Assembly (NCBI RefSeq): GCF_020510665.1
Contig: NZ_CP075187.1
Span: forward strand, 124,001 to 188,000
Source: Dechloromonas denitrificans
GTDB lineage: Bacteria > Pseudomonadota > Gammaproteobacteria > Burkholderiales > Rhodocyclaceae
Length of the DNA stretch: 64,000 nucleotides
Direction: 5' to 3'
The position numbers and the translations under genes were made by a program. This document shows positions 11,620 through 57,843 of the stretch, piece by piece (within the stretch, counting starts at the first letter, position 1; every line of letters starts with the position of its first letter). Below the pieces are notes generated by a model that searched no databases, was not told the DNA's origin, and saw only the letters and a list, made by a program, of their open reading frames with translations.

Positions 11620-11663
11620 GGCGACGTTTTTGCAAACGTTGCCGCGAGGCCCTTTTGCTTTTT
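11620..11663 (+). terminator. Putative terminator in the cobT riboswitch expression platform
   Basis: A 10-bp stem (11620-11629 paired with 11634-11643, one G-T wobble, TTGC loop) stands just downstream of the riboswitch aptamer. It is followed by a T-rich tract interrupted by GC (11653-11663) and then the cobT ATG at 11681. This fits an intrinsic terminator under riboswitch control, though the T tract is 9 nt from the stem. Confidence 0.5.
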
Positions 11664-11680
11664 CGAACAGAAAGAATCGG

Positions 11681-12730: not shown

Positions 12731-12736
12731 GCCCCG

Positions 12737-40866: not shown

Positions 40867-40931
40867 GCCGGATTGTGCCAAATCCTGCGCCCAAGCGGGG
40901 GCGAAGGGCGCGGATCGGGTAAAAATTATTA

Positions 40932-41978
40932 TTAGATGAGCATGGCCAGTTGCCGGGCCGCTTGCTCGATGCCATCGGGCAAAGGCAAGGCCGGCATCGC
41001 CTGACGGTCGAGTTGTGCGAGTGCAGCCGCGAGATCGCCGTTAACGAGTTGCCGGGCCTCGATTTCATGGCAGCGCCCATGGCTGGCCAGCCAGGCAATC
41101 AGGCAGTCCTGTTCGGGCCAGTCATCGCGTCGCTGGTAGAGCACCGGCGTGCCGTTGCAGGCGGCCTCGGTGAATGTGCCATAGCCGGGTTTGGTGATGA
41201 CTGCATCGACGGAACAGAGCAAGTCGGTAAACGACAGCTTGAAGTGTTCGATGGCGATTGCATCCGGGTGTCGGCATTGCCAGTTGCCCGGTACCAGCCA
41301 GCGCACGCCGGGCAGGCGCGGCCACTGTTCGACGGGCAGGTGATGGGCAATGCCGCCCATGGCCACGAGCACGCCTTTATCTGTCCCCAGGCCGAGATCG
41401 TGGGCGAGACCGCGGGCGGCAATCGGCGCAACGGGCTGAAGATTGTTCAGTGCCGGCATCGGCATGCCGGGAGTGACGCGCAAGAAGGCCTGTGCGGCGT
41501 TGTAGGCGGACAGCATCTCGCGGTGTATCGGCCCGGCCCAGCTTTGATCGCCGAAAAAGTGGGCAAAGAGATCGGCCCAGTTGAGTGAACACAGGCTAGC
41601 CGAAGGAATCCCGGCGTTGGCTGCCGCCGCCAGCGGCAGATAGCTGACGTTGGTCAGGACCAGATCAGGTGCGAGTCTGGCCAGAAATTCGCTTTCGGCT
41701 GCGACGCGCCCCGGCCAGTCGGCATGTGCCTGGCGATAGGCGGCGGCACTGGCATTCAGATCGACGCGGGTCGAGTCGAGCATGACGTAGCCGAAATCGG
41801 TGCTTCCTTCGATCAGGCGGTAAGGCGACTGGATACGTTGGGCCAGCTTGCGGGCCGGCAAGCTGCTGCGCACGGTCAACTGCAAATCAGGCTGCAATTT
41901 GCCCAGCGCGTTGAGGACCGGTGCGGTAATCGCCAGATGGCCGAAGCCGTGGCTGGAAATATCGACAAATAAATGCAT
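40932..41978 (-). CDS. MurG-like GT-B glycosyltransferase family protein
   Basis: The 348-residue protein opens LFVDISSHGFGHLAITAPVLNALG, a glycine-rich loop like MurG and UDP-glycosyltransferases. Its C-terminal half has GVLVAMGGIAHHLPVEQWP and VDAVITKPGYGTFTEAACNGTPVLYQRRDDWPEQ, the donor-binding region of GT28-like enzymes. It is the first gene upstream of the Pls-type synthetase (65 nt gap) and likely shares its transcript. Donor and acceptor are unknown; a related GHMP/arabinokinase-type N-domain is a less likely reading. Confidence 0.65.
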   Translation of the reverse strand: MHLFVDISSHGFGHLAITAPVLNALGKLQPDLQLTVRSSLPARKLAQRIQSPYRLIEGSTDFGYVMLDSTRVDLNASAAAYRQAHADWPGRVAAESEFLARLAPDLVLTNVSYLPLAAAANAGIPSASLCSLNWADLFAHFFGDQSWAGPIHREMLSAYNAAQAFLRVTPGMPMPALNNLQPVAPIAARGLAHDLGLGTDKGVLVAMGGIAHHLPVEQWPRLPGVRWLVPGNWQCRHPDAIAIEHFKLSFTDLLCSVDAVITKPGYGTFTEAACNGTPVLYQRRDDWPEQDCLIAWLASHGRCHEIEARQLVNGDLAAALAQLDRQAMPALPLPDGIEQAARQLAMLI

Positions 41979-42066: not shown

Positions 42067-42840
42067 TTAGCGGTTCTTGAACACCGGCTTGCGCTTCTCG
42101 ACGAAGGCGGCCATGCCTTCCTTCTGGTCTTCCAGTGCGAAAGCCGAGTGGAAGACGCGGCGCTCGAACAGCAGACCTTCGTTGAGCGAGCTTTCGTAGG
42201 CGCGGTTGACCGTTTCCTTGATCATCATCGCCACCGGCAGCGAGAAGCCGGCGATGGTCTGGGCGGCCTTCAGGGTTTCTTCGAGCAACTGTTCGGCCGG
42301 GATGATGCGGGCGACCAGGCCGGCTTTTTCGGCTTCGGCAGCGTCCATCATGCGCCCGGTCAGGCACATGTCCATGGCTTTGGCCTTGCCGATGGCGCGC
42401 GGCAGGCGCTGTGTGCCGCCGGCGCCGGGCATGGTGCCGAGCTTGATTTCCGGCTGGCCGAACTTGGCGGTGTCGGCGGCATAGATCATGTCGCACATCA
42501 TCGCCATTTCACAGCCGCCGCCCAGCGCGAAGCCCGCCACCGCAGCGATCACCGGCTTGCGGGCAGTTTTGACGCGCTCCCAGTTGCGGGTGATGAAATC
42601 GGTCTTGTAGGCGTGCATGTAATCGAAGTCCTTCATGAAGCCGATGTCGGCTCCGGCGGCGAAGGCTTTCTCATTACCGGTGATGACGATACAGCCGATG
42701 TTTTCGTCGGCTTCGAAGGCGTCGACCGCGGCACCGATGCCATCGACTACGTCATTGTTCAGTGCATTCATCGCCTCCGGGCGGTTGATGCGGATCAGAC
42801 CCACTTTGCCGTGGATTTCGGTCAGGACTACTTGTGTCAT
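42067..42840 (-). CDS. paaF: Enoyl-CoA hydratase (PaaF-type)
   Basis: PaaF hydrates 2,3-dehydroadipyl-CoA in the lower part of phenylacetate catabolism. The 257-residue crotonase has the oxyanion-hole segments [14 protein letters not shown] and [19 protein letters not shown], with the two catalytic glutamates in GCEMAMMCD and [19 protein letters not shown]. The start at ATG 42840 ([13 protein letters not shown]) is the family N-terminus; a longer reading crosses a terminator hairpin. It is the last gene of the cluster, separated from the binding-protein gene by that hairpin. Confidence 0.87.
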
Positions 42841-42857
42841 TGCTGCTCTCCAGAGTG

Positions 42858-42895
42858 CAAAAAAATGGCCGCCAAGGGCATGCCCCGGGCGGCCC
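42858..42895 (-). terminator. Hairpin with T-run between binding-protein gene and paaF
   Basis: GGCCGCC (42867-42873) pairs with GGCGGCC (42888-42894). On the minus strand the stem is followed by A and then a T7 run (42859-42865), a good intrinsic terminator. It sits 18 nt before the paaF ATG, so paaF expression should be lowered or need its own promoter. Confidence 0.7.
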
Positions 42896-42912
42896 AAGTC
42901 GAATGAATCTTG

Positions 42913-44058
42913 TTATTGAACGAGCGACCAGTCGCCGTTCTTGATCTCAAGCAGGCGGAAAGCCGAGAGATCGAGGCCCATGTGGTCGGTCGCAGACATA
43001 TTAACCACGCCGCCGGTTCCGACATAGCCCTTGGTCGCTTCGATGGCATCGCGCACGGCGGCCTTATCGGTCGATTTGGCCCGTTTGATGGCGTCGACCG
43101 CGATCATCAGACCGTCATAAGCGTGACCGCCGAACGAGGAAACATCGTTCTTCCACTTGTCGTTGTAAGCCTTGGTGTAGGCCGTGACCACCGGCTTTTG
43201 CGGGTCCTTGGCATCGAGCTTGTCGGCAACGAGCAGTGCGGCCGCCGGCAGGCGAACCCCTTCGGCGGCCGGGCCGGCGAGTTTGATGAACTCTTCGGAA
43301 GCGACGCCGTGGGCGTGATAGATCGGCAGGCTGATGCCCAGTTGCTTGTAGTTCTTGGTGACGATGGCCGGACCCTGGCCGAGACCGAAGACAAACACGG
43401 CCTGGACGCCGGCGGTGTTCTTGATCTTGGTCAGTTGCGGGCTCATGTCGGTGTCTTTCGGACCGTAGGTCTCGTTGGCTACCAGCGTGACGCCGTACTT
43501 GGCTGCCACGCCTTCGGTTTCCTTCTTGCCGGAATTGCCGAAGCCGCTGGTTTCGGAGAGCAGGGCCACCTTGGTCAGGCCGCGCCTCTTCATGTCCTCG
43601 AAGACTTTTTCAGCCGCCATGCGGTCGGTGTGCGGGGTCTTGAAAATCCATTTCTTGACCGGCTCGACAATGACCACGGCACCGGCCAGCGAAATGAAGG
43701 GGATGCCGGCTTTTTCAACCAGCGGGGCCATCGACATGGTGGCGCCGGTGGTCGTGCCGCCGACCAGGATGTCGACCTTGTCGTCATCGATCAGTCGCTT
43801 GGCAAAGCCGTTGGCCTTGTTGGCATCGCTACCGTCGTCGTAATGCACCAGCTGGAGCGGACGTCCGAGCAGGCCGCCTTTCTTGTTGATGTCTTCGACA
43901 TACATCTGGATCGTTTTCAGTTCCGGATCGCCGAGGAAGGCGGCCGGGCCGGTGACCGAGAGTACCGAGCCGATCTTGATCGGTTCGGCGGCGATGGCGC
44001 CAAAGGCACCGAGGACCAGCGCAGCACCGGCAACCAGCTTCTTGATGGTTTGTTTCAT
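42913..44058 (-). CDS. LivK-type branched-chain/aromatic ABC substrate-binding protein
   Basis: A 381-residue periplasmic binding protein with a signal peptide (cut at GAIAAEP, about residue 23) and the type I fold: IGSVLSVTGPAAFLGDPELKTIQMYVEDINKKGG, LVGGTTTGATMSMAPLVEKAGIPFIS, HAHGVASEEFIKLAG and FGGHAYDGLMIAVDAI. Relatives bind branched-chain amino acids or aromatic acids. It follows paaJ in the paa cluster, so an aromatic acid such as phenylacetate is a good guess. No permease or ATPase genes are nearby. AGAGGAGACAAACC precedes the ATG, and the 70-nt AT-rich gap upstream could hold a promoter. Confidence 0.83.
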   Translation of the reverse strand: MKQTIKKLVAGAALVLGAFGAIAAEPIKIGSVLSVTGPAAFLGDPELKTIQMYVEDINKKGGLLGRPLQLVHYDDGSDANKANGFAKRLIDDDKVDILVGGTTTGATMSMAPLVEKAGIPFISLAGAVVIVEPVKKWIFKTPHTDRMAAEKVFEDMKRRGLTKVALLSETSGFGNSGKKETEGVAAKYGVTLVANETYGPKDTDMSPQLTKIKNTAGVQAVFVFGLGQGPAIVTKNYKQLGISLPIYHAHGVASEEFIKLAGPAAEGVRLPAAALLVADKLDAKDPQKPVVTAYTKAYNDKWKNDVSSFGGHAYDGLMIAVDAIKRAKSTDKAAVRDAIEATKGYVGTGGVVNMSATDHMGLDLSAFRLLEIKNGDWSLVQ

Positions 44059-44128
44059 GGTTTGTCTCCTCTGTTTTAATCGTTACGAATTATGGAACAC
44101 ATTCTACTAAAAGAAAACACGGCAAAAA

Positions 44129-45334
44129 TCAGACACGCTCGATCACCATCGCGATGCCTTGCCCGACACCGATACACATGGTGCACAGGGCGTAGCGGCC
44201 GCCACGGCGTTTGAGTTCATAAGCGGCGGTGGTGACCAGCCGGGCGCCGCTCATGCCGAGCGGGTGGCCGAGGGCAATCGCCCCGCCGTTGGGATTGACA
44301 TGCGCCGCATCGTCGGCCAGGCCGAGGTCGCGCAGGACAGCCAGCCCTTGCGCAGCGAAAGCTTCGTTGAGCTCGATGACGTTCATCTGGTCGAGGCGCA
44401 GGCCGGTTTTGGCGAGCACCTTGCGCACTGCCGGTGCCGGGCCGAAACCCATGATGCGCGGCAGCAGGCCGGCCGTCGCCATGCCGACGACGCGAACCAG
44501 CGGCGTCAGGCCGTACTGGCTGGCGGCGGCGCCGGAAGCGAGCAGCAGGGCGCAGGCGCCGTCATTGACACCGGATGCATTGCCGGCCGTGACCGACAGT
44601 TCCGGGCCATTGACGCCTTTCAGCTTGGCGAGCATTTCCAGCGTCGTTTCGGGCCGTGGATGCTCGTCGACCGCGACAATGACCGGGTCGCCCTTTTTCT
44701 TCGCGATGCTGACCGGGATGATTTCGTCGGCGAAGCGCCCGGCCGCCTGTGCGGCGGCCCAGCGTTGTTGCGAACGGACGGCGAAGGCATCCTGATCGGC
44801 GCGGTTGATGGCAAAGTCGGCGGCGACATTGTCGGCCGTTTGCGGCATCGAATGCGTTTCGTACAACTTCTTCATTTGCGGATTGGCGAAGCGCCAGCCG
44901 ATCGTCGTGTCGTAGATTGCCGCGCTGCGCGAGAAAGCCGATTCGGCCTTGCCCATGACGAAGGGGGCGCGCGACATGCTTTCGACGCCGCCGGCGATCA
45001 TCAGTTCGGTTTCACCCGACTTGATCGAACGTGCGGCCAGCCCGATGGCGTCCATGCCCGAGCCACACAAGCGGTTGACCGTGGTACCCGGCACTTCGAC
45101 CGGCAGGCCGGCGAGCAGGCCGGACATGCGGGCGACGTTGCGGTTGTCTTCGCCGGCCTGGTTGGCGCAGCCGTAGATGATGTCCTCGACGGCCGTCCAG
45201 TCGACTTGCGGGTTGCGTTCCATCAACGCCTTGAGCGGGATGGCACCGAGATCGTCGGCGCGCACGCCGGACAGGGCGCCGCCGTAGCGGCCGATCGGGG
45301 TGCGGATGGCGTCGCAGATAAAGGCTTCGTTCAT
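44129..45334 (-). CDS. paaJ: 3-oxoadipyl-CoA thiolase
   Basis: PaaJ/PcaF cleaves 3-oxoadipyl-CoA to succinyl-CoA and acetyl-CoA, and in phenylacetate degradation also 3-oxo-5,6-dehydrosuberyl-CoA. The protein has NRLCGSGMDAIGLAARSI with the acylated Cys, INELNEAF-type VIELNEAFAAQGLAVLRDLG, GGAIALGHPLGMSGARLV with the active His and CTMCIGVGQGIAMVIE with the second Cys. I chose ATG 45334, with GAGG 8 nt upstream; the ATG at 45340 has GAGG only 2 nt away. It lies 10 nt after paaK. Confidence 0.9.
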   Translation of the reverse strand: MNEAFICDAIRTPIGRYGGALSGVRADDLGAIPLKALMERNPQVDWTAVEDIIYGCANQAGEDNRNVARMSGLLAGLPVEVPGTTVNRLCGSGMDAIGLAARSIKSGETELMIAGGVESMSRAPFVMGKAESAFSRSAAIYDTTIGWRFANPQMKKLYETHSMPQTADNVAADFAINRADQDAFAVRSQQRWAAAQAAGRFADEIIPVSIAKKKGDPVIVAVDEHPRPETTLEMLAKLKGVNGPELSVTAGNASGVNDGACALLLASGAAASQYGLTPLVRVVGMATAGLLPRIMGFGPAPAVRKVLAKTGLRLDQMNVIELNEAFAAQGLAVLRDLGLADDAAHVNPNGGAIALGHPLGMSGARLVTTAAYELKRRGGRYALCTMCIGVGQGIAMVIERV

Positions 45335-45344
45335 CGTCATGTCC

Positions 45345-46670
<1,326 letters not shown>

Positions 46671-46693
46671 GATGTCTCTCTCCGTTGTTTTGG

Positions 46694-47161
46694 TCAGGCG
46701 GCCTGATCGGCCTGTTGTAATCCGGCGATGACTTCGCCGGCGATACGGTAGCTCTTGCCCCGGAACAGGGCGATGGTCTGGCCGTTTTCACCGCGCACGG
46801 TGATGTCGTACACGCCGGTCCGGCCGGCCAGCGAACGTTCGACGGCTTCGGCTTCCAACGTTTCGCCTTCCTTGCCGGGCGCGAGAAAGTCGATGTGGCA
46901 GGCCGAGGCGACGGTGTTGCGGTTGTAGCTGTTGCAGGCGAAGGCGAAGGTGCTGTCGGCCAGCGTGAAAATGAAACCGCCGTGACAGATGTGATGCCCG
47001 TTGACCATGTCGCCGCGGACTTTCATCGCAATCCGGGCATAACCCGGCCTCACTTCGCGGATTTCCATGCCCATGCCCTGGCTGGCGCGGTCGCGCGACC
47101 ACATGGCCTGCGTGACTTCTTCAGCCAGCGCCTGGGCAGCGTTGTCGTGTGGATCAGCCAT
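46694..47161 (-). CDS. paaI: PaaI-type hotdog acyl-CoA thioesterase
   Basis: PaaI hydrolyses stalled aryl-CoA intermediates and so recovers CoA. The 155-residue hotdog protein has the family motif HICHGGFIFTLADSTFAFACNSY (the conserved HGG and Asp) and ASACHIDFLAPGKEGETLEAEA. I chose ATG 47161, 8 nt inside the end of paaH; the short upstream extension has no ribosome binding site. Confidence 0.92.
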   Translation of the reverse strand: MADPHDNAAQALAEEVTQAMWSRDRASQGMGMEIREVRPGYARIAMKVRGDMVNGHHICHGGFIFTLADSTFAFACNSYNRNTVASACHIDFLAPGKEGETLEAEAVERSLAGRTGVYDITVRGENGQTIALFRGKSYRIAGEVIAGLQQADQAA

Positions 47162-48737
47162 GAATCTTCCTTCCGGCAAAAACGGCGCGCTGGATCAGCG
47201 GTGAAATGCGGTAGCGGTCCTCGCCGTAGCTCGCGCCGAGGTGGGCCAGTACGTCGCGGATCGTTTCAACGCCGACCTGATCGGCCCAGGCGAGCGGCCC
47301 TTGCGGATAATTGACACCAAGTCGCATCGCGGCATCGGCCGCGGTTTCCGAGCAAACGCCCTGGTTGACCGCGTCAGCCGCTTCATTGGCCAGCATGGCA
47401 ACGGTACGCATGACGGCCAGTCCGGGAATGTCGAGAAAGCGGCTGACGGCGAAACCGGCTGCTTGCAGCAGCCCGGTGGCGGCGGCGATGGCCGATGGCT
47501 CGCATTGTTCGGCCGCAGCCATGGCCAGTCGGGTCGCCTTGTCGTAGTCGAGCGCCAGATCGATCAGCACGGTGTTGTCTACGCCCGATTCGGCGGCGCG
47601 CTGGGTGGCGCTGCGGCCGTCGGTGACGTAGATCACGGCGCGGCCGATTTCGGCGATCCGGCCGTCCCCCAAGGGGACTTCCTTCGGGGCGCCCCCCAAG
47701 GGGACTTCCTTCGGGGCGTCACTGTCCGGGGCGCGGCTGAACGACAGGCCGGAGTGGGTCAGGCGATCGGCCAAGGCTTCGGCCGCGATGGACTCGCCAC
47801 AAACGACGATCATCCCGGCCGGTACCTGGGCGGCTTCGGTTTGTGCTGTTGGGCGTACGGCACCCTCGCGATAGTCATAGAAACCACGGCCGGTCTTCTT
47901 GCCGAAGAAACCGGCATCGACCAGTTCCTGCTGAATCAGCGAGGGCAGAAAACGCTGGTCGTTGTAGAAGGCGCGCCACACCGAGTTGGTCACGGCGAAA
48001 TTGACGTCGTGGCCGATCATGTCCATCAGCTCGAACGGGCCCATGCGGAAACCGCCGGCTTCGCGGCAGCAGGCGTCGATCGTTGCGTAATCGGCCGCGC
48101 CTTCCTGGGCCAGGCGCAGGGCCTCGGCGTAGTAAGGACGGGCGACGCGATTGACGATGAAACCGGGTGTCGACTTGGCATGCACCGGGGTCTTGCCCCA
48201 GGCCGCGGCGCTGGCGAACAGCGTGTCGGCGACGTTTTTGTCGGTGGCCAGGCCGGAAACAATCTCGACCAGCGCCATCAGCGGGGCCGGATTGAAAAAG
48301 TGCAGCCCGGCCAGACGTTCCGGATGTTTCAGTGCCGCGCCGATGGCGGTCACCGAAATCGACGAGGTGTTGGTCCCGAAAATGCAGTCCGGGTCGACGA
48401 TGGCTTCGAGATCGCGGTACAGCGTCTGTTTGGCTTCCAGGCTTTCGACAATCGCTTCGACGATCAGGCCGGCATCGGCCAGATCGGCCAGTTGATGTAC
48501 GGCACTCAGCCGGGCGCTGGCTGCGGCGGCAGCTTCCGCGGTCAACTTGCCTTTTTCGGCCATTTTGGCGAATTGGGCACGAATGCCTTCAACCGCACGG
48601 GCGGCGGCATCCGGCCGGTTGTCGAGCAGCTTGACCGGGTGGCCGGCCGCGGCCGCCACCTGGGCAATGCCGGCGCCCATCGCGCCGGTGCCGACAACGG
48701 CAATGATGGTCTGCTGGGGCAGGGGCGTGTGGCTCAC
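47154..48737 (-). CDS. paaH: 3-hydroxyacyl-CoA dehydrogenase PaaH
   Basis: PaaH oxidises 3-hydroxyadipyl-CoA with NAD. The protein of 527 residues has an N-terminal Rossmann motif VVGTGAMGAGIAQVAAAAGHPVKLLD, the catalytic region HFFNPAPLMALVEIVSG and FIVNRVARPYYAEALRLAQEG, then two C-terminal helical 3HCDH domains, the long form typical of PaaH. Start is GTG at 48737 with GGAGAG 7 nt upstream, 4 nt after paaG. The linker around residues 340-360 contains a duplicated APKEVPLG segment encoded by a 27-bp tandem repeat. Confidence 0.92.
   Translation of the reverse strand: MSHTPLPQQTIIAVVGTGAMGAGIAQVAAAAGHPVKLLDNRPDAAARAVEGIRAQFAKMAEKGKLTAEAAAAASARLSAVHQLADLADAGLIVEAIVESLEAKQTLYRDLEAIVDPDCIFGTNTSSISVTAIGAALKHPERLAGLHFFNPAPLMALVEIVSGLATDKNVADTLFASAAAWGKTPVHAKSTPGFIVNRVARPYYAEALRLAQEGAADYATIDACCREAGGFRMGPFELMDMIGHDVNFAVTNSVWRAFYNDQRFLPSLIQQELVDAGFFGKKTGRGFYDYREGAVRPTAQTEAAQVPAGMIVVCGESIAAEALADRLTHSGLSFSRAPDSDAPKEVPLGGAPKEVPLGDGRIAEIGRAVIYVTDGRSATQRAAESGVDNTVLIDLALDYDKATRLAMAAAEQCEPSAIAAATGLLQAAGFAVSRFLDIPGLAVMRTVAMLANEAADAVNQGVCSETAADAAMRLGVNYPQGPLAWADQVGVETIRDVLAHLGASYGEDRYRISPLIQRAVFAGRKIHG
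47665..47718. repeat. 27-bp in-frame tandem duplication inside paaH
   Basis: Two copies of a 27-bp unit (47665-47691 and 47692-47718) differ at only one base (T or C at the first position). Each contains an internal near-palindrome (CCCC-AAGGGGACTTCCTTCGGGG). On the paaH strand they encode APKEVPLGG and APKEVPLGD, nine codons each, so the frame is kept. They lie in the linker between the catalytic and C-terminal domains, a tolerant site. Confidence 0.9.
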
Positions 48738-48741
48738 GCTT

Positions 48742-49536
48742 TCACTCTCCGGTGAAATTCGGCGCACGCTTTTCGGTGAAGGCCTTGACGCCCTCGGCGT
48801 AGTCCGGCGACCAGCCGAGTTCGCGCATCATGCCGCCTTCGAAGGACAGCTGTTGTTCGAGCGTGTGGCCGGGGGCGGCATGCATTGCCTGACGGGTGCG
48901 GACCAGGGCCTTGGTTGGCGCGGTCGACAGCTGTTTGGCCAGCGAATCGATCCGTGCGGCAAACTCGGCATCCTCGACACATTCCCAGATCAGGCCCCAT
49001 TCGGCGGCCTTCTCGGCCGGCATTTTCTCGGCCAGCAGGGCCAGGCCCATGGCGCGGGCCATGCCGACGCGCTGCGGCAGGAACCAGGTGCCGCCGGTAT
49101 CCGGAATCAGGCCGATCTTGCTGAAAGCCTGCAGGAAGGAGGCGGACTTGGTGGCGATGACCAGATCGCAGGCCAGCGCAACCGACGCCCCAGCCCCGGC
49201 CGCAATGCCGTTGACCGCGGCAATGGTCGGCACGCGCAGGTTCTGCAGGCGCAGCACGAGCGGCTTGTAATTGCGTTCGACGGTGTTGCCGATGTCCGGC
49301 ATCTTGCCGGCCTGGATCTGCATGGCACGGTCACCGAGATCCTGTCCGGCCGAGAAGCCGCGCCCGGCGCCGGTCAGCACCAGGACGCGAATCGAGGTGT
49401 CGGCCTGGACCTGGTCGAGCGCGACGCGCAGTTCGGCATGCATGTCGTCGGTGAAGCTGTTGAGCTTGTCCGGACGGTTCAGGGTCAGGCGGGCGATGCC
49501 GTCCTGGACTTCAAACTTGATGTTCTCGAAATTCAT
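48742..49536 (-). CDS. paaG: Ring-1,2-epoxyphenylacetyl-CoA isomerase PaaG
   Basis: PaaG isomerises the epoxide to an oxepin and also acts as a delta3-delta2 isomerase. The 264-residue crotonase has TGAGRGFSAGQDLGDRAM and AAVNGIAAGAGASVALACDLVIAT as oxyanion-hole segments and keeps the catalytic Asp in SKIGLIPDTGGTWFLPQRVG, the PaaG-type pattern. The ATG at 49536 abuts the paaN stop. Its presence implies that an epoxide-forming oxygenase acts before it. Confidence 0.92.
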   Translation of the reverse strand: MNFENIKFEVQDGIARLTLNRPDKLNSFTDDMHAELRVALDQVQADTSIRVLVLTGAGRGFSAGQDLGDRAMQIQAGKMPDIGNTVERNYKPLVLRLQNLRVPTIAAVNGIAAGAGASVALACDLVIATKSASFLQAFSKIGLIPDTGGTWFLPQRVGMARAMGLALLAEKMPAEKAAEWGLIWECVEDAEFAARIDSLAKQLSTAPTKALVRTRQAMHAAPGHTLEQQLSFEGGMMRELGWSPDYAEGVKAFTEKRAPNFTGE

Positions 49537-51216
49537 TTAGTTCTCCTGGGCAACGTGATAGCGGCGCTGGACGACCCGGAAACGATTGGCGACGAAGGCC
49601 GAATCGGCGTAGGACGCATTGGCTGCCGGGTTGCCGCCGGTGCCATGGTAGTCGGAGAAAGCGGCCGACTGATTGACGAAGACGCCGCCGGTCAGGTTGA
49701 TCGACAGGGCGACTTTGGAGCGCATCGTGGCGGCGGTCATTGCATCGATCACTTCGGCCTTGGTCGAATAGACGCCGGCGGTCAGGGCGCCGTGGGTGCG
49801 GACGATGCGCTCGGACAGGGCGATGGCGGCTGCCGTGTCGGCGACCTTGACGATGAAGCTGATCGGGCCGAAACGCTCTTCCATATAGGCTTTTTCGTCG
49901 GAAGCATCGCAGGCAAGCAAGACCGGGGTACGGACTTCGGCGTTCGGGAATTCCGGGTTTTCCAGCTTCTGCGAAGCGAGGATGACCTTGCCGAGCGAGC
50001 CGCTGTCGGCTTCGGCAACGCGCTTGATGGTGTCGGCCGACTGCATGGCGCCGAGTACGGCGTGCGCCACTTCCGGCTTGGACAGGAAGCCGGAGACGGC
50101 CTTGGCCAGGTCGGCGCAGACATCGTCGTAGGACTTGTGGCCATCTTCGGTGTCGATGCCGCCGGCCGGTACGAACAGGGCCTGCGAGGTGGTGCACATC
50201 TGGCCGGAGTAGAGCGACAGCGTGAAGGCCAGGTTGCGCAGCATCGGCTTGTAGGCATCGGTCGAGTCGATGACGATGTTGTTCACACCGGCCAGCTCGG
50301 CATAGACCTGAGCCTGGCGGCAATTGTCGATCAGCCACTGGCCGAAAACGTTGCCGCCGGTGAAGTCGATCGACTTGACGGCCGGATCGGTCACCAGCTT
50401 CTGCGTCGTTTCGCGCTGGTCGGTCACGCACAGCGTGACCAGGTTGGGATCGATGCCGTTTTCGGCGAGCACGGCGCGGATCGTGCGCACCGTGATGGCG
50501 GCCGGTAGGATGGCCTGGCTGTGCGGCTTGACGATCACGGCGTTGCCGGTGGCCAGCGCAGCGAAAACGCCGGGGTAGGTATTCCAGGTCGGGAAGGTGC
50601 CGCAGCCGACGACGACGCCGACGCCGCGTCCGACGATTTCAAAATGCTTCTTCAGGACCAGCGACGGGTTCTTGCCCTGCGGTTTTTCCCAGATCGTTTC
50701 AGCCGGGACAAAAGACTGTTCGCGCCAGGCGTAGGCGACGGCTTCAAGGCCGCGGTCCTGGGCGTGCGGGGCGCCGGCCTGGAAGGCCATCATCCAGCCC
50801 TGGCCGGTGGTCAGCATCACGGCGTGGGCCAGTTCGAAACTTTGCTTGTTCAGACGATCGAGGATTTCGACACAGATGCCGGTGCGGCCTTCGGCGCCGA
50901 CTTTCTGCCAGCCGTCCATGGCCTTTTCGCCGGCGGCGATCAGCGCGGCGTGATCACACACCGGGTATTGCACATTCAGTTCGACGCCATAGGGCGATTT
51001 TTCACCGCCGGTCCAGCCGCTCTGGCCGGGCTGGCCCAGTTCGAATTGCTTACCGAGATGGGCTTCGAAAGCCTTCTTGCCGTCTTCCGGGGCGGTTTCG
51101 CCATAAGCGCGCGGGCTCGGCATTTCGTTGAAGGCTGCCCAGTAGCCGCGCGTGGCGATGGCATTCAGGGCGCTGTCGATGGTGGTGCGGTGTTTGTCGA
51201 ACATGGGATGGGACAT
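49537..51216 (-). CDS. paaN: PaaN, aldehyde dehydrogenase type (short form)
   Basis: PaaN/PaaZ acts at ring opening, oxidising the aldehyde formed when the oxepin ring is hydrolysed. The 559-residue protein is an aldehyde dehydrogenase: VVVGCGTFPTWNTYPGVFAALATGNAVIVKPH (cofactor site), VYAELAGVNNIVID (general-base Glu) and LSLYSGQMCTTSQALFVPAGG (catalytic Cys). It lacks the C-terminal MaoC-type hydratase domain that E. coli PaaZ uses to hydrolyse oxepin-CoA, matching the second PaaN family (TIGR02288). ATG 51216 has AGGAGA 6 nt upstream. It is first in the minus-strand operon and divergent from the di-iron gene. Confidence 0.88.
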   Translation of the reverse strand: MSHPMFDKHRTTIDSALNAIATRGYWAAFNEMPSPRAYGETAPEDGKKAFEAHLGKQFELGQPGQSGWTGGEKSPYGVELNVQYPVCDHAALIAAGEKAMDGWQKVGAEGRTGICVEILDRLNKQSFELAHAVMLTTGQGWMMAFQAGAPHAQDRGLEAVAYAWREQSFVPAETIWEKPQGKNPSLVLKKHFEIVGRGVGVVVGCGTFPTWNTYPGVFAALATGNAVIVKPHSQAILPAAITVRTIRAVLAENGIDPNLVTLCVTDQRETTQKLVTDPAVKSIDFTGGNVFGQWLIDNCRQAQVYAELAGVNNIVIDSTDAYKPMLRNLAFTLSLYSGQMCTTSQALFVPAGGIDTEDGHKSYDDVCADLAKAVSGFLSKPEVAHAVLGAMQSADTIKRVAEADSGSLGKVILASQKLENPEFPNAEVRTPVLLACDASDEKAYMEERFGPISFIVKVADTAAAIALSERIVRTHGALTAGVYSTKAEVIDAMTAATMRSKVALSINLTGGVFVNQSAAFSDYHGTGGNPAANASYADSAFVANRFRVVQRRYHVAQEN

Positions 51217-51290
51217 CTTTTTCTCCTGGGATGAGCGTTTTCTGGGCAGGCACAGCACTTTATCCATGACTGAAAAGGCTGTTGCGTTAC

Positions 51291-51489
51291 CAATGTATCG
51301 ATCTGTTGTTGATGCAATGTATCACATTGGAGGGTAATGTAAACCAGTTTTGAATAACGTAATTTGTTCCATTGTGTTCCAAAAACAATAATTAAAACAA
51401 CAAATGTTTCTTGTTTATGAAAGGATTTTTGGACGTTGAATTATGTATTTTCGGATTGGTTCCATAAATAATTTGCTCAACGTGATACA
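51291..51489. promoter_or_regulatory. Repeated TGATACA-type motifs, candidate PaaX operators
   Basis: The 372-bp AT-rich divergent region between paaN and the di-iron gene holds a direct repeat CAATGTATC at 51291-51299 and 51315-51323, 24 bp apart. The second extends to TGTATCA and sits in a CAATG-TATCA-CATTG inverted repeat (51315-51329). The reverse form TGATACA occurs at 51483-51489, 8 nt before the candidate -35 of the oxygenase promoter. This placement at both promoters suggests binding of the local repressor PaaX (inference). The rest of the region is AT-rich with no other clear feature. Confidence 0.4.
51316..51343 (-). promoter_or_regulatory. Candidate sigma-70 promoter for the paaN operon
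   Basis: On the minus strand a TTTACA -35 (51338-51343) is followed after 16 nt by TACATT as -10 (51316-51321). It lies about 100 nt before the paaN ATG, in an AT-rich divergent intergenic region. The -10 overlaps a TGATACA-type motif. Predicted by eye. Confidence 0.4.
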
Positions 51490-51496
51490 AAAAGCG

Positions 51497-51523
51497 TTGA
51501 CAAGATGCTTTGTTGTGTAACAT
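51497..51523 (+). promoter_or_regulatory. Candidate sigma-70 promoter for the di-iron oxygenase unit
   Basis: A perfect TTGACA -35 (51497-51502) and a TAACAT -10 (51518-51523) are spaced by 15 nt, 65 nt before the oxygenase ATG. An imperfect inverted repeat (ACAAAAAGC ... GCTTTGTTGT) spans the -35. The gene itself has a very strong AGGAGG ribosome binding site at 51579-51584. Predicted by eye. Confidence 0.45.
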
Positions 51524-51588
51524 GATGTTTCCACGGCAGCCAGTGATTGGCCCGGCCCCCAACCTGAAGACATGAATTAGGAGGAGAT

Positions 51589-52614
51589 ATGGCAAGTAAA
51601 GAAAAATTCGCGGACAAAATGGAATTTCCGCCGGCAATCGAGCAGCCGAACATCTATCCGCTGTCCTGGAACAGCAAGACCAAGAAGCTGCAGGAAGTCT
51701 GGGAAGCCGCCCGTCGTGAAGACTGGGACCCGGAAAAGCTGCCCTGGGACACGCTGGATGTCGATACCTACACCTGGGAAGAGCGCGAATCCATCGCCTA
51801 CTGGTGGAGCCTGCTTTCCGTGTTCGACGCATCGGCCCCGCCGGTTTTTGCCGAAGCCCTGATCAAGACCTACGAAGTGCATGAGGAAGATCCGGTTCGC
51901 AAGTGCTTCTTCTCGGTCACCCGTGACGAGCAGAACCACGAAATCATGTGTGGCCTGGCGATCACCAAGCTGCTCGGCCATCCGGACCCGATCACCTACG
52001 TGCCGAAGACCGACCTCGGCCGCCGCCTGCAGAAGAACGTGCAGTGGCTGTATTTCAACGGTGCGCGTTACTGGAACGGCTACAAGCAAGCCGTGCCGAA
52101 GTACGACCTGGCCGTGCTGTTCAGCTCCTTCCTGATGGGCGAAATCGCTGCCGCCACCATCTTCAAGCAGATGTTCGACAACTCCCGCGAAGCTGTCTTC
52201 AAGGAAGGTTTCAAGAACATCGGCCGTGATGAAGGCCGCCACATGGCGATCTGCATGGCCGTGATGGAACGCGATTACCCGGGCCTCAAGGAGGAAACCA
52301 AGGCGGTTGTTACCAAGCAGATCCGCGCCGGTTACCTGTTCCTGTCGGCCGTGCTGTTCGAGCCGCCGATGGAATTCTGGGACCTGCCGGCCGACTTCAT
52401 CGCCAACCAGCGCGAAGGTGAAGAAGTGGCGCGTGGCGCCGGCTTCGGTATCCCGACCTACGAGGCCAAGAAGGAAAACTGGAAGAATGCGATGATCAAC
52501 CTGAAGGGTGTGCTCGATCGCTACAACATCCCGTTCCCGGCCATTCCGGAAGTCGGCATCACCGGCCAGGAAGTCAGCGATGTGGATCTGGATGACATCA
52601 TTCCGGTCTTCTGA
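51589..52614 (+). CDS. Ferritin-like di-iron protein, putative oxygenase replacing PaaABCDE
   Basis: A 341-residue soluble helical protein with a complete carboxylate-bridged di-iron ligand set: Glu89, Glu114-x2-His117 (TRDEQNHE), Glu185 (FLMGEIAAAT) and Glu215-x2-His218 (GRDEGRHMA). Spacing matches ribonucleotide-reductase-R2-like and bacterial multicomponent monooxygenase helices. It does not match PaaA, PaaC or BoxB as I know them, so I give no family name. It has a perfect AGGAGG site, diverges from paaN and is followed by a flavin/iron-sulfur reductase. The cluster requires an oxygenase between PaaK and PaaG and has no paaABCDE, so oxygenation of an aryl-CoA is the leading hypothesis. 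Non-oxygenase roles (oxidase, desaturase) remain possible. Confidence 0.75.
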   Translation: MASKEKFADKMEFPPAIEQPNIYPLSWNSKTKKLQEVWEAARREDWDPEKLPWDTLDVDTYTWEERESIAYWWSLLSVFDASAPPVFAEALIKTYEVHEEDPVRKCFFSVTRDEQNHEIMCGLAITKLLGHPDPITYVPKTDLGRRLQKNVQWLYFNGARYWNGYKQAVPKYDLAVLFSSFLMGEIAAATIFKQMFDNSREAVFKEGFKNIGRDEGRHMAICMAVMERDYPGLKEETKAVVTKQIRAGYLFLSAVLFEPPMEFWDLPADFIANQREGEEVARGAGFGIPTYEAKKENWKNAMINLKGVLDRYNIPFPAIPEVGITGQEVSDVDLDDIIPVF

Positions 52615-52635
52615 TCGACGCCGTTCAGTCAATCA

Positions 52636-52668
52636 CCCGTTCCAGTGATGAATTTCACCCGGAACGGG
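52636..52668 (+). other. Stem-loop 1 between oxygenase and reductase genes
   Basis: CCCGTTCC (52636-52643) pairs with GGAACGGG (52661-52668), with an inner GTGA/TCAC stem (52645-52648 with 52655-52658). It lies 22 nt after the oxygenase stop. There is no T run, so an mRNA-stabilising or processing hairpin is more likely than a terminator. Confidence 0.55.
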
Positions 52669-52691
52669 CGGTAGACCGCAGTATTTGCTCC

Positions 52692-52719
52692 GGCCGGTGC
52701 CCTGAAAAGGGTGCCGGCC
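52692..52719 (+). other. Stem-loop 2 with GAAA tetraloop between oxygenase and reductase genes
   Basis: A 12-bp stem (52692-52703 with 52708-52719, two G-U wobbles) closed by a GAAA tetraloop lies 40 nt before the reductase ATG. It is not followed by Ts. With stem-loop 1 it could protect the upstream oxygenase mRNA and lower expression of the reductase, as expected when oxygenase is needed in excess. Confidence 0.65.
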
Positions 52720-52759
52720 TTGCCGCAACAGAGAAACCAATAAAACTAGGGGAAGAAAA

Positions 52760-53809
52760 ATGGCTCGCATCATCATGCAACCCTCGGGCAAGTCGGTCGA
52801 ATGCGCTTATGGCGATACCGTGCTGATGGCCCTTGAAAAGGCCGGCTACGCGCTGCCCAACAACTGCCGCGCCGGTGCTTGCGGCGAATGCAAGGTCAAG
52901 GTCACAACCGGCCAGTTCGATCAGGGCATGGTGCTCGACATGGCGCTGTCGCAGGACGAGCGCAAGCAAGGCTACGGCCTGATGTGCATGGCCAAGCCGA
53001 TTTCCGAAGAACTGGTGATCGAGTGGGGCACCGAGGACGCCAAGCCAAAACTCTTCCCGCCGCGCGAAGATGCGCTGTTCGTGGTCACCGACAAGCGGCC
53101 GATTGCCGCCCGTGTCGTTGAACTGCGCTTGCGTCCGGTCGGCCAGCCGATCCGCTACTGGCCGGGCCAGTACGTGACCGTCGGCAATCCCCGTGCCGAA
53201 GTGCCGTCGCGTGCCTATTCGATTTCCAATGCCCCGCGTCCGGACGGCGAACTGGTGCTGCAGGTTGCCCGGGCCGAGGGCGGCGTGACCAGCAACTGGA
53301 TTCACGACAGCCTGAACATCGGCGAAAACGTCAAGATTTCCGGCGCCTACGGGACTTTTATCGGCGATCCGTCGGTCGATACGCCGGTGCTCTGCCTGGC
53401 GGCAGGAACCGGTCTGGCACCGGTCCTGGCGCTGGCCGAAGCGGCGCTGCGCCGTGGCTTCAAGAAGCCGGTGACGATGGTTTTCTCGGCCCGCACCAAG
53501 GAAGACGTTTACAGCCAGGGGATGATGGCCTGGTGGCGCACCAAGCATCGCAATTTCGACTACAAGGTGACGCTGACCCGCGAAGAAACCGAGGGTTATC
53601 TCAATGGCCGGGTCGATGCCGTGTTGCCGAAACTCTTCCCCGATCTCTCCAAACACACCATCTTTGCCGCCGGCAGCCCTGAATTTGTCGAGACCTGCGT
53701 CGCGACCGTCAAGGCGCTCGGTGCCCGCGAAGAACTGATCCATACCGAAGGTTTCTTCGCCCAGCAGCAACCCGTCGTGGCGGATGCCGACCATCTGTTG
53801 CCGCTGTGA
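52760..53809 (+). CDS. Flavin/2Fe-2S oxidoreductase with N-terminal ferredoxin domain
   Basis: This 349-residue protein passes electrons from NAD(P)H via FAD and an iron-sulfur cluster to an oxygenase. Residues 1-90 are a plant-type ferredoxin domain with Cys36, Cys41, Cys44 and Cys76 (NNCRAGACGECKV ... GLMCMAKP). The FAD-binding motif is RAYSISNAP (151-159) and the nucleotide site LAAGTGLAPVLALAEAAL (213-230). The order ferredoxin-FAD-NAD is that of phenol hydroxylase, toluene and methane monooxygenase reductases. PaaE has the ferredoxin at the C-terminus, so this is not PaaE. It follows the di-iron gene, its likely electron acceptor. GGGGAAG precedes the ATG. Confidence 0.88.
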   Translation: MARIIMQPSGKSVECAYGDTVLMALEKAGYALPNNCRAGACGECKVKVTTGQFDQGMVLDMALSQDERKQGYGLMCMAKPISEELVIEWGTEDAKPKLFPPREDALFVVTDKRPIAARVVELRLRPVGQPIRYWPGQYVTVGNPRAEVPSRAYSISNAPRPDGELVLQVARAEGGVTSNWIHDSLNIGENVKISGAYGTFIGDPSVDTPVLCLAAGTGLAPVLALAEAALRRGFKKPVTMVFSARTKEDVYSQGMMAWWRTKHRNFDYKVTLTREETEGYLNGRVDAVLPKLFPDLSKHTIFAAGSPEFVETCVATVKALGAREELIHTEGFFAQQQPVVADADHLLPL

Positions 53810-53850
53810 TTACCTGATTATCCTGTTCAGGCGGGGGCGGAGCCGTTAAC

Positions 53851-54846
53851 ATGCGCAAGTTATCCGCCCCGCCCGTTCAGGTCATTTCCGTGATTCAACC
53901 GATCCACAGTCGTCTCGAAGACTTTCGGCAGCAACGCCGGGTGCAGGCCGGCTCGCTCATCATTTCTGTCTTCGGCGACGCCGTCCTGCCGCGCGGCGGC
54001 CGCATCTGGCTTGGTAGCCTGATCCGCCTGCTCGAACCGCTCGAACTCAACGAACGCTTGATTCGCACCTCCGTGTTCCGGCTGGCCAAGGAAGAGTGGC
54101 TGCGCACCGAAACGGTCGGTCGGCGTGCCGACTATGTCCTGACCAACTCCGGGCGGCGACGTTTCGAAGAGGCTTCGCGGCACATCTACGCAGCCCACGC
54201 ACCGCTCTGGGATCGCCGCTGGCGGCTGATTCTGGCGGTCGGCGATTTTGACCCGAAAGAGCGCGAACGCTTGCGTCGCGCGCTCTTCTGGCAAGGCTTC
54301 GGCGTGCTCGGGGCCGACTGTTTCGTGCATCCCTCGGCCGATCTGACGGCCGCCTTCGATGCGCTGGTGGCCGAAGGCCTGTCCGACTTGCTCGACCGAC
54401 TGATGCCGCTGCTCGCCGCCGATTCGCGTTCCGGCCTGTCGGCCAACGACGCCGACCTGGTGCGCCGGGCCTGGAATCTCGAAGAGCTCGGCACGGCTTA
54501 TGCCGGGTTTGTCAGCACCTACCTGCCTATCCTGGCCGAACTGCGCCGCGACCGGCAGGTCGAGGTCGATCCGGAAGATGCCTTCCTGCTGCGCACCTTG
54601 CTGATCCACGACTATCGCCGCCTGCTGCTGCGCGACCCGGAACTGCCCGACGTGCTGCTGACGGCCGACTGGCCGGGCCAGAAGGCGCGGCTGTTGTGCA
54701 AGGAACTCTATCGTCGCCTGGCACTGGCTTCCGAGCGGCATCTCGACAAGTTCCTGACGCTGGCGGATGGCAGTGCCCCGGCCAGCGACCCGGCCTATGC
54801 CGAACGTTTCCCGCTCGACGACCCGCTCAACTCGATGGCGCTGTAA
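53851..54846 (+). CDS. paaX: PaaX-type transcriptional repressor
   Basis: PaaX is a repressor of phenylacetate catabolism, released by phenylacetyl-CoA. The 331-residue protein has the N-terminal winged-helix region (SLIISVFGDAVLPRGGRIWLGSLIRLLEPLELNERLIRTSVFRLAKEEWL), the family segment GRRADYVLTNSGRRRFEEASRHIY and a C-terminal PaaX_C-like domain with WNLEELGTAYAGFVSTYLP. It lies 42 nt after the reductase gene on the same strand and should control both divergent arms (known for the family, inferred here). Confidence 0.9.
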   Translation: MRKLSAPPVQVISVIQPIHSRLEDFRQQRRVQAGSLIISVFGDAVLPRGGRIWLGSLIRLLEPLELNERLIRTSVFRLAKEEWLRTETVGRRADYVLTNSGRRRFEEASRHIYAAHAPLWDRRWRLILAVGDFDPKERERLRRALFWQGFGVLGADCFVHPSADLTAAFDALVAEGLSDLLDRLMPLLAADSRSGLSANDADLVRRAWNLEELGTAYAGFVSTYLPILAELRRDRQVEVDPEDAFLLRTLLIHDYRRLLLRDPELPDVLLTADWPGQKARLLCKELYRRLALASERHLDKFLTLADGSAPASDPAYAERFPLDDPLNSMAL

Positions 54847-54976: not shown

Positions 54977-55038
54977 GTCATTGAACCGCAACAATGGCTT
55001 CATAAGATGAGCGCCCACTCGTGCTCTTCCTGGTTGCC

Positions 55039-57843
55039 ATGAAACTTTTCGAACCTGCGGTTCGCCTGGTCGGACATCTCTCCTTTCGCAACAAGCTGCG
55101 TGCCACCGCCATCGTCTTCGGCCTGCCGCTCCTACTGGCTGCCGGTTTGCTGGTGTACGAATTGCAGGCCCGCGTTGCCACCTTGCAGAATGAGCGGGCA
55201 GAACTCAGCCTGCAAGTCCCGGCACTGGCCCTGCTTGGTCATCTGCACCAGATCGTCGCGGCCGGGCAGGCCTTGCAGGAGGGCGATGCATCAAGCGAGG
55301 CCCTGCTGACCGATAGCCGGCAACAGGCCAGGAATGCCCTGGATACGCTGGATGTCGGGTTTTCTGCGACGAAGCTGCAAGCGGTGGCCGGGGCCGACGG
55401 CAATCCGGCATGGTTGTCGCGTCGTGCCGCGCTGGCCGAACAGATCGAACACGCCGGTGCCGACGATATTGCCGCGCTGATTCCCTTGCTGCGCAGCGAG
55501 CTTGAACGGATGAACGAAAAAGCCGGTTTGCTGATCGACGGCGATACGGCGAGCAGCCGCCTGCTCGATATCATCACGGCTCATTTGCCGGGCCTGATCG
55601 AAACCAACGGGCAGGCTGCGCGGCTGGGCACGAATGTGCTGCTCAAGAAAAGCGTGCGCGGCAGTCGGCGGACCGATCTGACCTTGCAGCGCGGCAATTT
55701 CGACGCGCTGGTGCTGTGGAGCATGGATGGTCTGCAGAAAGTGGCCAGCGAGCATCCGGAACGTTCGGCTGCGCTGAGTCAGGCCGGGGCGCAGATGAAC
55801 ACCGCCTACCTGGCCGTCCAGGAAGCGATCACGATCAAGATGCTGGATACGACCGATTACGACATGACGCCGGCGGCCTATCTCGATCTGACGGCCAAGG
55901 CGATGAACGAAACGCTGGCCGTCGCCGACATCCTGATTGCCCAGGCCGATGTGCTGCTGCATGAGCGGCTGAGTGTGCTGCAGACCCAGCGCAATATCGT
56001 GGTTGCCGTGATGGCGATCATCCTGGCGATTGTCGCGGCCGGTTTCGTTGCCGCCTACATTTCGATCATGCGCGGCCTGAACGGCCTGGCTGACGCGGTC
56101 AACACCATGGCCGAGGGCAATCTCGAAGCGCGTGTCGATGTCACCAGCCGCGACGAAATCGGGGCGGTCGGCACGCAGTTCAACAACATGGCGGAAAGCC
56201 TGGCCGAACGGACTTCGCAGCTGCGCGAAAAGACCAAGGACATTCACGGCATGTTGCAGAACATGACGCAGGGCATCCTGACGATCATGGCCGACGGCAA
56301 GGTGCACCACGAGTACTCGGCTTATCTCGAAACAATTTTCGAAACCCGCGAAATCGCCCGGCGGCCGGCGCTGGATTTCCTGTTTTCTGGCAGCGATGTC
56401 GGGGCGGATGCCCTGTCGCAGATCGAGGCAACGGTCGCTTCCTGCATCGGCGAAGAGCGGATGAATTTCGATTTCAATGCCCATCTGCTGGTCAACGAAG
56501 TGCGCCAGACCTGGCCGGATGGCCGCGAGAAATATCTCGATCTGGTCTGGTCGCCGATTTGCGACGAAAACGATGTGGTCGAGAAACTGATGGTTTGCGT
56601 CCGCGATGTCACCGAATTGCGTCAGCTGGTCGCCGAGGCCGAGCACCAGAAGCGCGAGCTGGACATGATCGGCCAGATTCTCAAGGTGACGCACGAAAAA
56701 TTCCACGACTTCATCGACAGTTCGCGCCGTTTCATTGTCGATAACGAAGCCTTGCTCCAGTCGGCGGTCAGTCTGTCGCCCGATCTGGTGACGCAGTTGT
56801 TCCGCAACATGCACACGATCAAGGGCAACGCGCGCACGTATGGGCTGTTGCACATGACCAATGTCGTGCACCTGGCCGAGCAATCCTACGAAGCCTTGCG
56901 CCAGGGCCGTGCGGCTTTCGTGCCGGATGTCCTGCTGGCCGAGCTGGATGCGGTGCGCTGCAGCCTGGAGGAATACGCCCACCTCAACGATGTGACGCTG
57001 GGCCGCAAGGGGCCGGGCCGGCGCGGCAGTGCCGAGAAGTACGCCATGGTCGAGCACGGCCATCTGGCCAGCATGCGTGCGGCACTCGATGCCTACGACC
57101 TGTCGGCTTGCCACCGCGATACGCTGGTCGCGCTGGTTCGCCAGATCAAGCTGGATCTCGATTTGATCGGAACGGAGTCGATCAACACGATTCTCGCCCC
57201 GGTGTTCGATTCGTTGCCGTCGCTGGCCGCCGAACTGGGCAAGGAAGCGCCTCGGCTGGTCGTCAGCGATCATGGCATCCGGCTGCGTAACCAGGTGTCC
57301 GACCTGCTGCGCAACGTTTTCATGCACCTCTACCGCAATGCGATGGATCACGGTGTCGAAGTCGCGGTCGACCGGCTGGCCAAAGGCAAAACGGCCAGCG
57401 GCACGATCGGCCTGCGCCTGAGCATGAATGGTGGATTGCTCAAATTCCATCTGGGCGACGATGGCAAGGGCCTGGCGCTCGGTCACATTCGGCGCAAGGC
57501 AATCGCTCAGGGGCTGATTGCCGAAGGGGTTGAGGTGGCCGATGAAACCGTCGCCAACCTGATTTTTGCCGCCGGTTTCTCGACCGCCGCAGCCGTCACC
57601 GAAGTTTCCGGGCGTGGGGTCGGCATGGATGCGGTGCAGGACTTCATCAAGCGCGAAGGCGGCAAGATTGCCTTGCACTTTGTCGATCAGCGGATCGGCG
57701 AGGATTTCCGGGCATTTGAAACCGTCATCGAATTGCCGGCCCGGTTTGCCGTCCTCAGTGTGCAGCAGCCCGAAAGTGCGGGGCCGAAACCGGCTGCACA
57801 GGGGCTGTCTCCATTGTTACCGGTCCGTCTGGCCGAGGCGTGA
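55039..57843 (+). CDS. Membrane CheA-like histidine kinase (HAMP-PAS-HPt-HATPase)
   Basis: A 934-residue protein (from ATG 55039; a GTG at 55021 adds six residues). Membrane segments lie at about 22-40 and 319-341, bounding a roughly 280-residue helical periplasmic domain. HAMP covers about 341-395, and a PAS-like region about 400-525. An HPt-like region carries [14 protein letters not shown] with His592. A CheA-type ATPase follows: [14 protein letters not shown] (N-box, 761-774), GDDGKGL (G1, 806-812) and [15 protein letters not shown] (G2, 855-869). There is no CheW-like SH3 domain and no P1-P5 layout, so it differs from CheA. It probably phosphorylates the CheY-like protein at the end of the cluster. 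Confidence 0.88.

Follow-up and report, generated by a model that had tools for sequence, protein, structure and literature searches.

A candidate two-component di-iron epoxidase in a phenylacetate cluster without paaABCDE from Dechloromonas denitrificans

Which enzyme oxygenates the ring of phenylacetyl-CoA in a phenylacetate (paa) cluster that carries none of the genes paaABCDE? The question arises at positions 42067–54846 of a 64,000-nucleotide stretch of the Dechloromonas denitrificans genome, hereafter the window (bases 124001–188000 of a single contig of 3,457,400 bases; completeness 100, contamination 0.35). A sequence-only reading of this DNA had noted that paaABCDE is missing from the locus, and our analysis agrees: none of the five genes lies within it. 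The plus strand holds two adjacent genes, which we call DIIR (51589–52614) and RED (52760–53809). DIIR, a 341-residue R2-like di-iron protein judged by its open reading frame, invariant residues and AF2 model, is our candidate phenylacetyl-CoA epoxidase, and RED is a 349-residue reductase. We consider it probable that the two form a two-component phenylacetyl-CoA 1,2-epoxidase in the role of PaaABC(D)E, with the substrate, the epoxidation, the electron path and the regulation all predicted.

Distribution of DIIR-RED and of paaABCDE

Across the complete genome, the search that the sequence-only reading had set as its own refutation test bore that reading out, with zero matches to the PaaA model TIGR02156 and zero to the PaaA/PaaC family PF05138. 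Both searches work, since they were positive in 4 of 14 control genomes. The BoxB model TIGR03225 also had zero matches in the complete genome; the same search was over cut-off in 0 of the 14 controls, and the model detects true BoxB proteins in the fetched loci L149 (923.5 bits) and L153 (921.1 bits).

We compared 199 genomes of the window's family with 199 of the order of Insolitispirillum peregrinum, each sample including its centre (G000 and G248), chosen for its known DIIR. PaaG was counted only over the curated cut-off, and the weaker matches, present in 191/199 family genomes, were not counted. Two genomes were dropped from the DIIR counts: G041 from the family sample, a PaaG-positive genome with a DIIR piece (query residues 226–341, 53% identity, one stop), and G274 from the order sample, whose match is 24% identical and of a different family, with no PaaG match at the 1e-95 limit. 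The family sample contained 35 genomes with DIIR, 74 with PaaG and 44 with PaaA over cut-off. All 35 DIIR genomes were PaaG-positive (Fisher p = 1.4e-18, kinship ignored). The PaaG genomes comprised 18 with DIIR and no PaaA, 17 with both, 25 with PaaA alone and 14 with neither; DIIR occurred in 18/27 of those without any PaaA-type match and in 17/47 of those with one (p = 0.016). The order sample held seven DIIR and 39 PaaG genomes. All seven DIIR genomes carried PaaG (p = 7e-6, Fisher, kinship ignored), and six were without PaaA. The association is unbroken when the centres are removed (34/34 and 6/6), and none of the 42 DIIR genomes in both samples is without PaaG, while 24 are without PaaA. 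The expectation that relatives would pair DIIR with paaG is borne out in both samples; that they would be without paaA holds for 18/35 and 6/7, and fails for the 17/35 family genomes in which PaaA is present.

The relation between the two systems can be seen in L119, a locus from the same genus. It holds DIIR, RED, PaaN, PaaG, PaaH, PaaI, PaaK, PaaJ, SBP (a periplasmic binding protein) and ECHF (an enoyl-CoA hydratase) in the window's order at 72–94% identity, and PaaA to PaaE are inserted between SBP and ECHF (L119 13205–17043). PaaA to PaaD exceed their model cut-offs, and PaaE falls 1.4 bits short (419.4 versus 420.8). The corresponding junction in the window measures 63 bp (42850–42912). 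SBP is in view in 42 of the 80 fetched DIIR loci, and beyond it lies paaA in 17, ECHF without paaA in 14 and neither in 11; three of the 14 (L075–L077) have PaaA elsewhere in the genome. Altogether, paaA was not seen in 59/80 loci. The genome-wide PaaA check covered 50 of those 59, mostly drafts (all but L082, L092, L103, L108, L111, L114, L115, L117 and L118), and found 32 genomes without PaaA and 18 with it. The PaaA-free drafts include Azonexus hydrophilus, Dechloromonas hortensis, D. denitrificans, Brachymonas denitrificans, Castellaniella defragrans and Insolitispirillum peregrinum.

On a tree of PaaG and PaaN from 48 DIIR-bearing clusters, the genome-wide PaaA state switches at least eight times. 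The PaaA state is known for 71 loci, and the clusters are those among them in which both proteins were found; the tree is a quick one, with 13 of its 45 inner branches unsupported. These data show that paaABCDE is often gained or lost where DIIR is present; because the clusters were chosen for having DIIR, the constancy of DIIR itself is not demonstrable from this set. DIIR is the protein most identical to that of the window in 34 of the 39 loci holding all eight compared cluster proteins. Both systems share one cluster in L119, L120 and L121, and paaEDCBA stands beside DIIR-RED-PaaX in L086, L091 and L102. The proposal that the gene pair is an alternative aryl-CoA oxygenase is thus well supported by comparative genomics: DIIR was found only with PaaG, many DIIR genomes have no PaaA, and a single junction holds paaABCDE in some clusters and not in others while DIIR-RED is present. 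Replacement would, however, be only part of the picture.

DIIR-RED is also found apart from the paa genes. In one genome it lies in L148, away from the paa cluster L147, which consists of PaaN, PaaG, PaaH, PaaI, PaaJ and PaaK with no oxygenase recognised in naive gene calls; this genome has no PaaA match. Within about 6 kb of DIIR-RED, L148 encodes proteins 65% and 46% identical to the window's SBP and PaaX, and it also has transporter-like genes. The pair is likewise unlinked in the 2.4-Mb genome G096 (L128/L129), whose paa cluster shows no paaA and which is not among the 51 family genomes with a PaaA-model match.

Some paa clusters of other genomes (L151 8517–9284 and 7834–8283; L132 8111–8890 and 7447–7896; L130 8123–8941) contain a further oxygenase type, a single PaaA-like protein of 255–272 residues whose gene lies immediately upstream of paaG or is separated from it by one gene. 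The two such proteins scanned score 73.3 and 86.4 bits on PF05138, and the nearest Protein Data Bank (PDB) entry is 4mud, followed by PaaA. A flavodoxin gene (PF00258) lies beside PaaN in L151 and L132. Weak PaaA-model matches adjoin paaG in 5/199 family genomes and lie ≤3 kb from it in 11/199 order genomes. L131 (9568–10458) encodes a second PaaA_PaaC-family paralogue (296 residues, 79.2 bits); its gene is a long way from paaG, and the short PaaA-like protein is encoded in the same genome.

The DIIR and RED proteins and their gene cluster

In an alignment of 121 DIIR sequences, D80, E114, H117, E185, E215 and H218 are invariant. The last five had been named as di-iron residues by the sequence-only reading together with Glu89, which does not stand: residue 89 is Glu in 74 sequences, Ser in 26, Ala in 19 and Thr in 2. 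On conservation, Glu89 would be no ligand candidate, and the six invariant residues, Asp80 among them, are candidate metal ligands. Cys121, seven residues past E114, is also invariant (121/121); this is the position of the radical Tyr/Phe of R2, seven residues past the first ExxH glutamate. Four residues before the last ExxH glutamate, where the extra (seventh) histidine ligand of AurF sits, DIIR has Ile (112) or Val (9).

The AF2 model of DIIR (pLDDT 89.2, pTM 0.88) adopts an R2-like helical fold, with Foldseek E-values of about 4e-4 at best and with VlmB and CmlI among the structural matches. A search of the PDB gave no credible sequence match, and an NCBIfam scan gave no match; neither TIGR02156 nor PF05138 matches DIIR. 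The AurF family PF11583 scores 20.6 bits, below its cut-off of 29.6, and many of the listed DIIR relatives carry PF11583 in precomputed annotation. The modelled fold and the D/E, ExxH, E, ExxH residues together would place DIIR in the R2-like di-iron superfamily. A sister family, 24% identical to DIIR and counting 604 proteins at E ≤ 0.001, is represented in L146 (1480–2397), where the gene is followed by one for a Rieske oxygenase (PF00355, PF19112).

RED has the BenC/MmoC-like domain order of an N-terminal 2Fe-2S ferredoxin domain (Fer2, residues 7–80), FAD_binding_6 (118–200) and NAD_binding_1 (213–313), according to Pfam. It adjoins DIIR in all 78 testable loci.

The gene set and coordinates given by the sequence-only reading hold by open reading frames and family models, with names judged against curated NCBIfam cut-offs. 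Two divergent arms fill 42067–54846. On the plus strand, DIIR and RED are followed by the third gene of the arm, encoding the PaaX repressor (53851–54846; TIGR02277, 270.7 bits, cut-off 264.55). The minus arm runs from PaaN to ECHF. It begins with PaaN, of the aldehyde dehydrogenase type PaaN_2 (49537–51267; TIGR02288, 910 bits, cut-off 578.75), and PaaG, the ring-1,2-epoxyphenylacetyl-CoA isomerase (48742–49536; TIGR02280, 382.9 bits, cut-off 345.15). The 3-hydroxyacyl-CoA dehydrogenase PaaH (open reading frame 47154–48767, scanned protein from 48737) scores 669.4 bits on TIGR02279, exactly its cut-off. The thioesterase PaaI (open reading frame 46694–47179, scanned from 47164; TIGR02286, 166.4 bits, cut-off 118.9) and the phenylacetate-CoA ligase PaaK (45345–46670; TIGR02155, 705 bits, cut-off 646.3) come next, then the 3-oxoadipyl-CoA thiolase PaaJ/PcaF (open reading frame 44129–45376, scanned from 45334; TIGR02430, 724.6 bits, cut-off 597). 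SBP (42913–44058; PF13458, 211.8 bits), a periplasmic binding protein of an ABC transporter, would by inference serve aromatic-acid uptake. ECHF (42067–42849, longest open reading frame to 42897), named paaF in the sequence-only reading, passes the general enoyl-CoA hydratase model NF004517 (449.4 bits, cut-off 396) and does not reach the PaaF model NF007239 (273.8 bits, cut-off 371), so that it is PaaF by position only. The other paa names stood, PaaX, G, N, K, I and J over their cut-offs and PaaH at its own.

The intergenic region between the divergent PaaN and DIIR genes (51268–51588) contains the GATAC/GTATC element GATACAAAA at 51484–51492. This is a single copy in the 64 kb, with 0.08 expected, and the 9-mer is present in 39 of 57 PaaN-DIIR intergenic regions; it is a possible operator. 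The element was also noted upstream of several other DIIR genes. Beside PaaX lies a gene for a 940-residue signalling protein with HAMP, Hpt and HATPase_c domains (55021–57843). At the other end of the cluster are a 348-residue open reading frame (40932–41978) that has no NCBIfam or Pfam match at E ≤ 0.001 and is glycosyltransferase-like by eye, and a gene for a 1335-residue protein (36874–40881) with PF00501 adenylation and PF00550 carrier domains and a C-terminal hexapeptide-repeat match.

Proposed reaction and competing explanations

In the proposed pathway, PaaK would produce phenylacetyl-CoA. RED would take electrons from NAD(P)H and hand them on, by way of its FAD and 2Fe-2S domain, to the di-iron site of DIIR, and the reduced site would activate O2 and place one oxygen atom onto the ring across C1–C2, giving ring-1,2-epoxyphenylacetyl-CoA. 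PaaG would convert the epoxide to the oxepin, to be followed by ring opening, oxidation by PaaN and β-oxidation by PaaF, PaaH and PaaJ. PaaX probably controls both arms. With somewhat less assurance, we lean towards the broader view that DIIR-RED is the first R2-like di-iron enzyme to epoxidise a CoA-bound benzene ring and a widespread non-homologous replacement for PaaABCDE, which would then be one of at least three interchangeable modules: PaaABCDE, DIIR-RED, and the single PaaA-like protein with flavodoxin.

Several observations weigh against the assignment of DIIR-RED as the phenylacetyl-CoA epoxidase. PaaA is also present in 17/35 family DIIR genomes, so that DIIR may serve other conditions or have a related acyl-CoA as its substrate. 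PaaX follows RED in only 40/76 testable loci, and in L119 the fetched stretch shows no PaaX next to RED. No paa gene of >50% identity was found in the fetched stretches of L114, L115, L117 and L118 (Azoarcus/Parazoarcus-labelled), or in those of L123, L124 and L128; the genomes of L123 and L124 (G057, G067) have PaaA elsewhere. The oxepin-CoA hydrolase model NF046063 had no over-cut-off match in the genome, leaving the ring-opening step without an assigned gene, and it had none in the 14 controls either. PaaG also occurs with neither system. This holds for 14 of the 74 family PaaG genomes, among which five have a divergent PaaA-like match beside paaG and one has a DIIR fragment, and for 21 of the 39 in the order sample, which lack PaaA, DIIR and any PaaA-like match.

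We fetched PaaG regions from five of those 14 family genomes (L134–L138) and four of the 21 order genomes (L149, L150, L152 and L153), and three of the latter four are box-type. In L149 (4055–8542), a PaaG-like gene over the PaaG cut-off lies within an aerobic benzoyl-CoA cluster whose BoxC (1000.4 bits), BoxB and BoxA (587.2 bits) are all over cut-off. L153 combines BoxB (11632–13164), over cut-off, with a PaaG-like gene over the PaaG cut-off, and L150 is box-type by likeness. PaaG may be useful in box clusters, or the PaaG model may be too wide; the statement that PaaG is pointless without the PaaABCDE epoxide was too strong. In L134–L138 and L152, for which no model scan was made, PaaG is over cut-off and no PaaA, intact DIIR or recognised oxygenase was found nearby. 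These regions possibly hold further oxygenase types.

The strongest competing explanation, though one we hold less probable than not, is that DIIR-RED and PaaABCE are isozymes suited to different conditions, such as oxygen tension or iron supply, with DIIR-RED alone retained in some lineages. It overlaps with our preferred reading, as the chemistry would be the same and only the reason for keeping both systems would differ. The shared clusters of L119, L120 and L121 and the repeated switches of PaaA state fit it. However, NosZ, taken as a proxy for denitrifying, low-oxygen life, was no commoner with DIIR (25/35) than in the other PaaG genomes (32/39; p = 0.41), which leaves a low-oxygen role unsupported. 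If DIIR-RED instead oxygenated a related aryl- or arylacetyl-CoA, such as a phenylacetyl-CoA bearing a hydroxyl or some other substituent, with the product entering at PaaG or later and plain phenylacetate not used in this way, the 17 family genomes with both systems and the side-by-side arrangement in L086, L091 and L102 would be expected. We regard this as unlikely, given that PaaG would then be without an oxygenase in 18/35 and 6/7 DIIR genomes and that the window's PaaK, PaaG and PaaN exceed equivalog cut-offs.

A still slimmer chance attaches to DIIR being an accessory oxidase or a stress or iron protein of the paa regulon, the epoxide being made by an unrecognised oxygenase elsewhere. 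The short PaaA-like type in other genomes and the PaaG genomes without a recognised oxygenase suggest that such enzymes could exist, but an electron-transfer reductase adjoins DIIR in every testable locus, and neither the PaaA/PaaC family nor BoxB is matched in the complete genome. That DIIR is an AurF-type N-oxygenase in an incidental neighbourhood seems very improbable. The weak PF11583 match, the PF11583 annotation of many relatives and the structural matches to VlmB and CmlI point that way; against these stand the sub-threshold score, Ile or Val at the AurF histidine position in 121/121 sequences and the co-occurrence with PaaG.

Significance and comparison with known systems

Aerobic phenylacetate degradation is recognised in genomes by the markers PaaA and PaaC; a 2026 survey (PMC13186573) took paaA together with paaC in the context of the ligase as its criterion. 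If DIIR-RED is the epoxidase, such marker surveys miss degraders, including strains with cultured representatives, and a second, unrelated scaffold for a hard reaction would allow a comparison of mechanisms. A two-protein system should also be easier to express than PaaABCDE.

DIIR-RED resembles PaaABC(D)E in its predicted reaction, its pathway position and its di-iron protein of the ferritin-like superfamily, and many relatives carry both, within one cluster or elsewhere in one genome. It differs in having one oxygenase protein where the known system has PaaA, PaaB and PaaC, in the absence of a TIGR02156 or PF05138 match in DIIR, and in having no PaaC partner in the genome. The iron-sulfur domain of RED is N-terminal, unlike that of PaaE, and RED scores 127.6 bits on the PaaE model (cut-off 420.8), compared with 419.4 for the true PaaE of L119. 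The earlier description of the pair as simpler than the known five-gene solution left out BoxAB, a known two-gene epoxidase of a CoA-bound ring made up of a di-iron oxygenase and a reductase. The two-gene build is the same. The differences are that DIIR has no BoxB-model match, that RED reaches 28.7 bits on the BoxA model TIGR03224 (cut-off 459.2; true BoxA of L149, 587.2), and that the substrate of BoxAB is benzoyl-CoA, whereas the ring expected for DIIR-RED has a CH2 spacer. By these sequence tests DIIR-RED belongs neither to PaaABCE nor to BoxAB. From R2-like ligand-binding oxidases and ribonucleotide reductase R2, DIIR is set apart by Cys121 at the radical tyrosine position and by its adjoining reductase, in addition to the Foldseek and PDB distances given above, and from AurF, CmlI and VlmB by the lack of the extra histidine ligand and by its place among paa genes. 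Among the entries listed by our literature searches, no paper on a system of the DIIR-RED type appeared. DIIR-RED would represent a known reaction, as predicted here, carried out by an unrelated protein family.

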